Shown: positions 24,377 to 27,095 of the stretch, piece by piece | Layout: each line of letters opens with the position of its first letter | Position numbering within the stretch: the stretch's first letter is position 1 | Assembly: GCA_011390635.1 (NCBI GenBank) | Contig: JAABSA010000008.1 | Span: 1 to 57,281 of the forward strand | Length of the DNA: 57,281 nucleotides | Reading direction: 5' to 3' | From: Desulfotignum sp. | GTDB taxonomy: Bacteria; Desulfobacterota; Desulfobacteria; Desulfobacterales; Desulfobacteraceae | Translations under genes and position numbers: made by a program | Notes under the pieces: generated by a model | What the model was told of the DNA's origin: nothing | Database searches by the model: none | What the model saw: the letters and a program-made list of their open reading frames with translations, nothing else

Positions 24377-26377
24377 TCAGATACGGTTTGCCGCGGCAAA
24401 TCCCTGGTGAACTGCATCAAAAGCAGTGCCCACCCTTGCGGCATCCCCTGCTGTTTCACAGGCGATACCCATGCTGCGTACGAGATCCTCAAGGGGATTG
24501 TGGGAGACGGATCCAGCCGCCACCACCACGGTATCCACAGCCAGTGCCTCAGATTTTCCGCCCCGGTCAAAGGTTACGCCCGTATCGGAAATGCCGGTCA
24601 CCGTTGCCGATGTCATGGTTTCAATGCCGCACCTGCCCAGGTCCTGCAGCATTCCCCATTTGGTGGATTTGCCGATATCCTTTCCAATTTTGTCCATCAT
24701 CTCAAAAACAAAGATACGGGTATTGCCAGCCACCGCCATTGTATAAAGGGTCTCGGGGTCTTCCGCCTGGTTGACCAGCAGAAACTTCACCACATCTGCG
24801 GGCATCGACCCTTTTTCAGCCAGAAACAGCGCGGTTTCCACCCCCACGGCATTACCCCCGATGACGGCCACCCGGTTTCCGACAGCCACCCGGTTTTCCA
24901 GCACATCCCATGCCTGTACCACGTGGGGCAGGTCTATGCCGGGAACAGGTGGTTTCACCGGTACGGCACCAGTGGCCAGGATCACGGCATCGGGTGCATT
25001 TTCCCGGATCACTGTCTGGTCCACCTTGGAATTGAGAACCACCGGTATTTTTTCCAGGGTCAGCTGGTTTGCCAGGTCTCCGGCAAACCCGGCGAACTCT
25101 TCTCTGCCCGGCGGGGCTGCAGCCAGATGCAGCTGTCCTCCCAGGCGGCCGCTTTTTTCATGCAGCACCACCCGGTGCCCCCGGCGGTGTGCTGTCAAGG
25201 CCGCCGTCATGCCGGCAGGCCCGCCGCCAACCACCAGTATGTTTTTTGGAGAAGATGTCTTTTTCACAACCCGGGTGCTTTCATGCCCGGCCAGGGGGTT
25301 GCACAGACATTCCACCTGCTTGAGCTTGAACAGATTGTCAAAACATCCCTGGGCACAGGCTATGCAGTGCACAATTTCATTTTCCCGGCCCTGTTTTGCC
25401 TTTCGGGGCAGCATGGGGTCGGCAATCAGGCTTCTGCCCATGGCCACCATGTCGCAATGACCTTTTGCCAGAAGGTTTCTTGCGGTGTCAGGATCATTGA
25501 TGCGGTGAGAAGCGATCACCGGTATATCCACCTGTTCTTTGATGCCGGCAGCCAGATAGGAAAAGGCACCCCTGGGCACCTGGGCCACGATTTGGGGAAC
25601 CCGGGCCTCATGCCAGCCCACATTGATACACAGGGCATCCACAGGTCCTTGTGCCAGCGCTTTGGCATAGGTTTTCAGCTCTTCTCTGGTATTGCCGCCC
25701 GGCATGAAATCATTGCCGTTCATGCGCACGATCAAGGGAAACTCTATTCCCACAGCCTCTCTGACCGCGTCCATCACCTGGAGGCCGAACCGCATCCTGT
25801 TTTCCAAACTGCCACCGTATGCATCCGTCCTGTGATTGGTCAACGGTGATAAAAACTCACTGATGAGATACCCGGTACCGCTGAGGATTTCCACGGCATC
25901 AAACCCGGCCTGCTTCACCCGCAGGGCTGCCCTGGCAAACCGTTCAATGGTCTGTTCAATTTCCTGGATGCTCATTTCCTTAGGCACTTCTTTGGTCAGG
26001 CGGGAGGCGATGGCGGACGGTGCCACCGGCTGTTTTCCCTCCAGAAAAAAGGAAAAATTATACCGGCCTGCATGGTTGAGCTGCACCGCCCCTTTGGAGC
26101 CGTTATCTTTGATGGCGGATGCAAGACGGGACAGGCCCGGTATGAACCGGTCATCGTGGGCACCGATATTCTGGGTGTTTCCGGAAAGTTCATCCACTGT
26201 GGCAAATCCCACACAGATCAAACCGGCGCCGCCTCTGGCCCGCAATGCATAAAAGTCTACGATCGGGTCGGTGACCTCATAATCCACCCCCATACCCAGG
26301 TGCATGGCAGGCAGATATATTCTGTTATCCAGGGTCAGCGTATTTATGGCAATGGGTTCAAACAGGGGATCTTTCAT
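24377..26377 (-). CDS. NADH:flavin oxidoreductase/2,4-dienoyl-CoA reductase-type ene-reductase
   Basis: This protein of about 666 residues has an FMN TIM barrel of the old-yellow-enzyme family (1-340), a [4Fe-4S] cluster motif C-x2-C-x3-C-x11-C (CIACAQGC and the following Cys) and a C-terminal FAD/NAD(P)H domain (VVGGGPAGMTAAL, then a second dinucleotide loop VIGGNAVGVETAL). That is the layout of 2,4-dienoyl-CoA reductase and trimethylamine dehydrogenase relatives. It would reduce an activated C=C bond; the substrate is unknown. GGAGAG five bases before ATG 26377 favours this start over ATG 26401. It lies 76 bases downstream of the candidate selenoprotein gene on the same strand. Confidence 0.9.
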   Translation of the reverse strand: MKDPLFEPIAINTLTLDNRIYLPAMHLGMGVDYEVTDPIVDFYALRARGGAGLICVGFATVDELSGNTQNIGAHDDRFIPGLSRLASAIKDNGSKGAVQLNHAGRYNFSFFLEGKQPVAPSAIASRLTKEVPKEMSIQEIEQTIERFARAALRVKQAGFDAVEILSGTGYLISEFLSPLTNHRTDAYGGSLENRMRFGLQVMDAVREAVGIEFPLIVRMNGNDFMPGGNTREELKTYAKALAQGPVDALCINVGWHEARVPQIVAQVPRGAFSYLAAGIKEQVDIPVIASHRINDPDTARNLLAKGHCDMVAMGRSLIADPMLPRKAKQGRENEIVHCIACAQGCFDNLFKLKQVECLCNPLAGHESTRVVKKTSSPKNILVVGGGPAGMTAALTAHRRGHRVVLHEKSGRLGGQLHLAAAPPGREEFAGFAGDLANQLTLEKIPVVLNSKVDQTVIRENAPDAVILATGAVPVKPPVPGIDLPHVVQAWDVLENRVAVGNRVAVIGGNAVGVETALFLAEKGSMPADVVKFLLVNQAEDPETLYTMAVAGNTRIFVFEMMDKIGKDIGKSTKWGMLQDLGRCGIETMTSATVTGISDTGVTFDRGGKSEALAVDTVVVAAGSVSHNPLEDLVRSMGIACETAGDAARVGTAFDAVHQGFAAANRI

Positions 26378-26453
26378 CTTCTCTCCATTCATTGGGTTCA
26401 TCAGTATCAGGATTCACAAAATCATCCCATTTAAACACCCTTCTCCCGGGTTG

Positions 26454-26651
26454 TCACTCTTTTTTGTCCAAAAATGACGGCGGCGTGGTGTGTATTTCAG
26501 ATGAGGAACTCTTTTCAGTCTCTGTATTTTTTTTGTCTGTCACCTGACAGGCATTGCGCATTCAGGTGGAAATTCCCATTTTCGGCAGCACATAGATCTG
26601 CAGCAGCAGATAAATTCCGATAAATCCTATAATCAAAAGCATCTCTTTCAT
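26454..26651 (-). CDS. Candidate membrane-anchored selenoprotein (UGA read as Sec)
   Basis: An ATG at 26651 follows a near-ideal AAGGAG with a 7-base spacer. It opens 29 codons encoding one hydrophobic helix (MKEMLLIIGFIGIYLLL...) that ends in VLPKMGIST. The next codon is TGA (26564-26562). The same frame then continues 35 codons to a second TGA at 26456-26454: MRNACQVTDKK and a hydrophilic tail. The TGA is followed 16 bases later by a hairpin with an AGGU loop, as in bacterial SECIS elements (see next entry). Read through, it would be a 65-residue single-pass protein with a U-x4-C pair just beyond the membrane. If TGA is a stop, this is a 29-residue membrane peptide. I do not recognise a named family. 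Confidence 0.6.
26535..26552 (-). promoter_or_regulatory. SECIS-like hairpin after the in-frame UGA
   Basis: On the minus strand CTGTC-AGGT-GACAG (26550-26537) forms a perfect 5-bp stem with an AGGU loop, extended by a G-C pair beyond one mismatch. The loop begins 17 bases after the UGA. In E. coli fdhF the equivalent AGGU begins 18 bases after UGA. A G within the first two loop bases is a general requirement of bacterial SECIS elements. Confidence 0.6.
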
Positions 26652-26823
26652 GTGGCATCTCCTTGAAAAGTGTTTCCATGATAATAAGCACAAAACCCTG
26701 TTGATTCAACCCCGCGGATAAAATGCGCTGCACACCTCCAGGGAGGTCTCAGGACAGAGTGCTGCAGAGCAGGGACGGAAATCTGGTATGCCTGTGGCAA
26801 ATATCCAGGGGTATCAGTAAGGG

Positions 26824-26903: not shown

Positions 26904-27095
26904 GTGCCGATTTTTGAATACCAGTGTGACACCTGCAAACATGTGTTTGAAAAACTTGTGTTTGCAGGAGATACACCTGACATCACCTGTCCTGCATGCC
27001 ACAGCCATGACATCACCAAAAAAATGAGTGCTGTAAGCTTTATGGGCAAAAGTATGGGCACCTGTGCTGCAGATGCCCCAAAAGGTTTTTCATGA
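26904..27095 (+). CDS. FmdB-family zinc-ribbon protein
   Basis: The 63-residue protein starts at a GTG with AAGGAG eight bases upstream. It has the family opening (PIFEYQC), two CxxC pairs (CDTC and CPAC) forming a zinc ribbon, and the common end (SFMGKSMGTCAADAPKGFS). FmdB-type proteins are widespread small putative regulators; the name comes from amidase regulation in methylotrophs, and no general function is established. It is divergent from the candidate selenoprotein gene. Confidence 0.9.
   Translation: MPIFEYQCDTCKHVFEKLVFAGDTPDITCPACHSHDITKKMSAVSFMGKSMGTCAADAPKGFS

Follow-up and report, generated by a model that had tools for sequence, protein, structure and literature searches.

A predicted family of single-helix membrane selenoproteins in Desulfobacterota and Acidobacteriota

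The window, a 57,281-nucleotide stretch of a Desulfotignum sp. draft genome (contig JAABSA010000008.1), carries on its minus strand a short coding region that is interrupted by a TGA codon (26454..26651). Read directly, the frame opens with ATG at 26651, runs for 29 codons to an in-frame TGA (26562..26564, minus), continues for 35 codons, and stops at a second TGA (26456-26454). A Shine-Dalgarno-like AAGGAG (26659..26664, minus) lies 7 bases 5' of the ATG, and purine-rich sites precede most of the first 30 homologues, as judged by eye. With the first TGA read as selenocysteine (Sec, residue 30), the product is a 65-residue protein with a single helix and a U-x4-C pair completed by Cys35 (26547..26549, minus), the codon for which falls within the 5' arm of a hairpin. 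The original prediction proposed a membrane-anchored selenoprotein here, and the elements it described (ribosome site, 29 codons, in-frame TGA, 35 further codons with a nearby Cys, second stop) are all present. It also foresaw that ORF callers would miss the gene, and mechanical ORF calling does end at the TGA.

On the same strand downstream lies an OYE/BaiCD-like FMN/FAD oxidoreductase (24377..26401, minus), which matches the BaiCD model with an E-value of 9e-155 but scores under its cut-off. The 76-base gap originally given between the two genes applies if the oxidoreductase starts with the ATG at 26377; with its longest ORF, which opens at 26401, the gap from the selenoprotein stop is 52 bases. 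The divergent neighbour is an FmdB-type zinc-ribbon ORF with a GTG start (26904..27095, plus), and FmdB-like genes recur near the family in two phyla.

Directly after the TGA, the transcript could form a SECIS-like hairpin, CUGUC-AGGU-GACAG (26537..26550, minus), with arms at 26550-26546 and 26541-26537 and the loop at 26545-26542. The hairpin had been said to begin 17 bases after the TGA; this holds for the loop, which starts at the 17th base, but the stem starts at the 12th. With 16 nt between TGA and loop, the element satisfies the SECIS geometry used here (G in the first two loop bases, a loop of 3-9 nt, a stem of 4 or more base pairs, and 16-37 nt from TGA to loop). The 46-nt stretch folds with -6.6 kcal/mol (z -0.68), and 38 of 200 shuffled sequences equal or exceed this stability. 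This misses the energy limit of -7.5 kcal/mol that the 2026 review PMC13188914 gives for a bacterial SECIS model, a limit that some homologues pass on the bare stem. Because the window hairpin alone is unremarkable, the case for a selenoprotein needed comparison with relatives.

A read-through search with the window product yielded matches at E<=1 in 198 of 395 genomes of the same phylum (Desulfobacterota). The 30 best loci, all featuring LPxxGxxTU and a Cys five residues later, were built into a profile (A1) that matches 180 of the 395 genomes at E<=0.1 and 158 at E<=1e-6, the window's genome included. All loci of the latter set were inspected. The in-frame TGA occupies the Sec site in 158/158 genomes and is never TAA or TAG, although in L269 it is shifted by one extra residue before the site. 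Among the matches weaker than E<=1e-6, several are genuine TGA forms (e.g. L053-L055 and L056-L060) and others are chance. The TGA is flanked on both sides by conserved coding sequence, as seen in the 158 genomes and in the A1 alignment, which is one mark of bacterial selenoproteins. Cys35 is invariant across the 30 A1 rows, and past the TGA, substitutions are most frequent at third codon positions (125:115:215 over 40 non-independent pairs). The frame beyond the TGA, the loss of which had been named beforehand as grounds for rejection, is kept in relatives. In contrast to the window hairpin taken singly, this conservation across genomes far exceeds chance.

The family extends to a second phylum. 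A mixed profile (A4) run over 366 Acidobacteriota genomes, the phylum of the Bryobacterales locus L121, gives 88 places in 87 genomes, with the family matched in about 86/366. Inspection of 44 of the 88 places identified 41 TGA forms, two Cys forms (L131, L137), and one chance match (L174); the other 44 are known solely from a table count of in-frame TGA. Two subgroup motifs, GVPTU(A/G/S)xP and KTULxPxNRQ, appear in Acidobacteriota (L161-L173) and in the window's phylum (L221, L232, L253, L271). Several members of these subgroups have no Cys after Sec, and others have a distant one.

Counterparts in which Cys replaces Sec were sought with a DNA pattern across a collection of 84,980 species. 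The pattern returned 16 stretches, 14 of which are family members, and the remaining two (L118, L129) were judged to be chance. Since the pattern itself fixes both Cys residues, the independent evidence is the helix upstream: a start codon and hydrophobic helix are found 20-21 residues upstream in 13 of the 14 Cys forms, and the last (L124) is cut by a contig end. One Cys form, L137, was also recovered without the Cys pattern. The Cys forms come from Verrucomicrobiota, Deltaproteobacteria, Chloroflexi, Gimesia, Planctomycetales, Acidobacteria, and one Cyanobacteriota MAG. Thus Cys-containing homologues align at the Sec column, a second mark of bacterial selenoproteins, and the absence of any Cys aligned to the TGA had been another stated ground for rejection. 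The Cys forms of three Deltaproteobacteria MAGs (L127, L128, L130) adjoin a DsbD-thioredoxin-type gene and a small thioredoxin-like gene; the former is Pfam-confirmed for L127, and all three genomes are without a SelB match.

SelB (PF09106) is found in 338 of the 395 genomes searched in the window's phylum; among the 158 carrying the TGA form, 151 have it (Fisher p 1.6e-6, uncorrected for relatedness). The seven TGA genomes that give no SelB hit (G009, G012, G039, G060, G087, G108, G332) range in completeness from 76 to 98%. SelB was found in none of the 13 Cys-form genomes tested, out of 14, for which genome completeness was not given. The original prediction had asked for selA, selB, and selC to be confirmed in the window's genome, a lack of selB/selC being a further ground for rejection. 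The first two are present, together with selD, so that SelA, SelB, and SelD are all encoded; selC was not found. For tRNA-Sec, this 96% complete draft gave only sub-threshold Rfam matches among the 150 candidates scored out of 544, and ARAGORN, run on six of the eight Rfam-returned loci, identified all six as other tRNAs. ARAGORN likewise reported no tRNA-Sec in 19 kb round selB or in some 4 kb surrounding selA and selD, and a search by motif was negative. The selD gene of this genome (L042, G000:C26:12486-13409) contains an in-frame TGA of its own and probably encodes a selenoprotein itself.

Across the family the hairpin is recurrent. An uninterrupted hairpin of model geometry with E<=-4 kcal/mol is present in 56 of 69 distinct Sec forms, which were picked by motif pattern, versus 8.3% of codon-shuffled copies. 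Of the 13 forms that lack one, seven (L011-L014, L016, L019, L025) have one or more stem mismatches, and six of these retain the AGGU loop. The same threshold (E<=-4) is reached by 22 of 24 Acidobacteriota Sec loci versus 21.5% of codon-shuffled copies. By comparison, a hairpin passes in four of 13 Cys forms (L124, at the contig edge, omitted) and in 20% of their shuffled copies. Two Cys forms, L119 from Chloroflexi and L125 from Planctomycetales, still show a SECIS-like hairpin after the Cys codon, perhaps a relic or chance.

The stem also covaries. A set of 28 members was selected by sequence (TG in the Cys codon, then CAG), independently of pairing; across it, the combination of the codon's third base with its stem partner is T-A in 14, C-G in 11, T-G in two, and T-C in one. 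This base is silent in the protein, yet it tracks its partner. A second register, with the loop 23 nt past the TGA, is seen in 14 members, whose pair types are diverse; because a minimum of 5 pairs was required for inclusion, their inner pairing reflects selection of the sample, and the unselected sixth pair is formed in 14/14. One stem control is less favorable: sliding the partner by -3 scores 121/140 against 120/140 for the true register, which counts against that control. We discount this result because the slid pairing requires a one-base loop. Taken together, these comparisons support a model in which the hairpin directly after the TGA would help SelB to read the codon as Sec.

AlphaFold2, given the window protein and 13 Cys-form relatives, predicts a transmembrane helix at residues 2-24 (26580..26648, minus), a region that is hydrophobic in aligned homologues. 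The block over residues 1-20 has a pLDDT of 88. The tail is of low confidence and the whole-model mean is 62.6, so the helix alone is confidently modeled. A search of solved structures returned 0 matches. The 69 motif-trimmed Sec forms are 45-69 residues long (median 54; a residue ahead of the start is counted in some). Over fixed flanks, the mean net charge is -0.2 on the N-terminal side of the helix and +2.4 on the C-terminal side, and by the positive-inside rule this suggests that the tail lies on the cytoplasmic side of the membrane. The tail is lysine-rich and probably disordered.

A Cys follows Sec at five residues in 52 of the 69 forms and further away in 12; none is seen in five, of which four are two-Sec forms truncated at their second TGA. 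Among another 98 sequences from the window's phylum, 74 have the Cys at distance five, 19 have it further on, and five lack it (L221, L232, L253, L262, L271); it is also missing from L073, a weak match, and from L161, L164, L167, and L171 of Acidobacteriota. The Sec/Cys pair originally proposed for the membrane surface is therefore usual, not obligatory, with the Cys distant or absent in some members. In the two-Sec form, found in genomes of one genus (L056, L057, L058, L060), the second TGA occurs some 20-30 codons on in a PTUDGxxC motif, and a hairpin, paired by eye, follows each TGA.

Gene neighbourhoods are heterogeneous. No gene always adjoins the selenoprotein, and the top family is common to at most seven of 40 neighbourhoods. 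Pfam annotation of the 34 adjacent same-strand genes from these 40 neighbourhoods finds no family in more than three. Our early view that there is no conserved neighbour proved too strong, as shorter ORFs and the second phylum revealed recurring ones. The larger survey covered 109 distinct loci (95 Sec, 14 Cys) within 1.5 kb, and nine loci of family f52 were omitted as redundant from a neighbour set. In raw counts from single-linkage blast clusters and patterns, uncorrected for background, a thioredoxin-type cluster is near 19/109 loci (13 of these same-strand and starting no more than 800 bases away), a rhodanese/YgaP-like cluster near 18/109, and FmdB-type zinc ribbons, by pattern, near 15/109 (14 of them same-strand and one, in the window, divergent). 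At least one redox neighbour is present at 35/109 loci and none at 74/109, in a union that admits same-strand thioredoxins only. A near/far control with the FmdB pattern on forty 12-kb loci places four genes within 600 bases and one at 5.4 kb; genes that start with GTG, the window's FmdB gene among them, escape this pattern.

Pfam annotation of all 78 chained neighbours from Acidobacteriota and Cys loci yields Rhodanese 8, Thioredoxin 6, YgaP-like_TM 6, DsbD_TM 3, and Zn_ribbon_8 3. For the window's phylum, 92 of 111 chained neighbours give Cytochrome_C7 5, Cytochrom_CIII 5, tRNA-synt_1c 4, and Thioredoxin 4. From these counts, the redox-neighbour signal is clearer in Acidobacteriota and the Cys loci. 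Individual neighbours that score above curated cut-offs include a thioredoxin (L151), an FmdB protein (L134, TIGR02605), a YgaP-like protein (L134), rhodaneses (L120, L122, L149, L157, L147), and the DsbD-thioredoxin protein of L127. In L151, L158, and L159 the order is selenoprotein, thioredoxin, FmdB. A link to sulfate reduction was considered and found to be weak: family and DsrA co-occur in 91 genomes, with 67 having the family only, 99 DsrA only, and 138 neither (odds ratio 1.9, p 0.003, uncorrected for relatedness).

The TGA at 26564-26562 almost certainly encodes selenocysteine, judging from the sequence comparisons. The membrane-anchored selenoprotein of the original prediction is borne out by the TGA in 158/158 genomes, the Cys counterparts, the SelB distribution, and the recurring, covarying hairpin; Sec decoding, the predicted membrane helix, and the usual Sec/Cys pair are all supported. 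That the protein is a selenoprotein and has a general redox role, taken jointly, we regard as highly probable. The family would comprise bacterial selenoproteins of roughly 45-70 residues with one membrane helix followed by a cytoplasmic lysine-rich tail. SelB would read the TGA as Sec, aided by the hairpin, placing Sec just past the helix in LP(K/R)xGxxTU, with a Cys five residues later in most members. At the cytoplasmic face, Sec may react with a persulfide, disulfide, or peroxide as its oxidised substrate and, where the Cys is present, form a selenenylsulfide with it; a thioredoxin or DsbD-type carrier could then reset it. The recurrence of thioredoxin, rhodanese/YgaP-like, DsbD-like, and FmdB genes near a minority of loci suggests a thiol/selenol relay on the cytoplasmic side of the membrane. 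A thioredoxin-linked sulfur/thiol relay specifically is a tentative assignment. Equally provisional is the fuller reading of widespread, uncatalogued membrane micro-selenoproteins that present a cytoplasmic-face selenol in a dedicated sulfane-sulfur/thiol relay with thioredoxin, rhodanese/YgaP, DsbD, and FmdB, with a two-Sec form and with Cys where Sec decoding is absent.

The FmdB-like zinc ribbons near 15/109 loci, a cluster near five loci that looks ArsR-like by eye, and the capacity that a U-x4-C pair could have for holding soft metals would also fit a selenol/thiol peptide that binds a metal or metalloid (arsenic, mercury, zinc) at the membrane and takes part in no redox relay. This appears unlikely, given that there is no further conserved ligand, that the Cys is variable in distance and sometimes absent, and that three of the neighbour types, thioredoxin, rhodanese, and DsbD-like, serve redox chemistry or sulfur transfer. 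Membrane complexes commonly include single-helix subunits, and multihaem Cytochrome_C7 tops the chained neighbours of the window's phylum (5/92, versus 4/92 for Thioredoxin), so the protein might instead be a small accessory subunit whose Sec serves such an enzyme complex. We find this doubtful, as the top family occurs in at most 7/40 neighbourhoods and the DsrA association is weak. The original prediction had favored joint function with the downstream ene-reductase, which shares the strand and follows the stop by 52 bases when its longest ORF is taken. This pairing is not conserved: Oxidored_FMN accounts for one of the 34 adjacent same-strand genes, the window's own, and lies outside the 25 most frequent families of the larger set and so in at most 2/92, making a working partnership very improbable. 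Finally, that the TGA is an ordinary stop closing a 29-residue membrane peptide, with incidental similarity downstream, agrees with where mechanical ORF calling ends and with the unexceptional window hairpin, but is hardly credible when the codon is TGA in 158/158 and never TAA or TAG, Cys35 is invariant in 30 A1 rows, the Cys-site relatives read on past the Sec column, and third-position bias persists after the TGA.

Proteins of comparable layout occur elsewhere. SELENOK and SELENOS of animals have one membrane helix and a charged tail bearing Sec, a likeness to the present family that is an analogy of architecture only. FeoB-associated Cys-rich membrane proteins have a similar layout, one helix and then a Cys motif; the family has no Pfam match above noise. 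Against Pfam and NCBIfam release 20, the window product, the 30 A1 rows, and the 14 A2 rows give no match at curated cut-offs (best E 0.03). Like the bacterial selenoproteins treated in PMC13188914, the family has an in-frame TGA, a SECIS-like hairpin, Cys counterparts, and genomes with SelB. Table 1 of that source, which gives names and motifs without sequences for 119 selenoprotein families, shows no name or motif assignable to a short, single-helix U-x4-C protein; its nearest motif is the UxxxxU of TsoB. TsoB, which resembles a rhodanese/DsbD fusion (NF045694), unites Sec with rhodanese and DsbD, the latter two being neighbours of our family. The family has no match to its 572-position model, and the DsbD-thioredoxin neighbour of L127 scores 88 bits against a cut-off of 805. 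A literature search of titles and abstract openings, with subscription papers and preprints outside its scope, returned no such protein. We could match the family to no entry of the catalogues searched here.

Several features are likely to have caused it to be overlooked: the proteins are short, gene callers end at the TGA, and Cys counterparts are seemingly rare. Deep-Sep, as described in PMC12013277, works on the 300 nt that follow the TGA and requires either a known Sec homologue or a pair of Cys homologues. If our reading is right, a selenoprotein of 158/395 and about 86/366 sampled genomes in two phyla is missing from the catalogues searched. The family would offer a testable handle on the role of selenium at the bacterial membrane, and its case suggests that there may be other recoded microproteins concealed in a similar manner.
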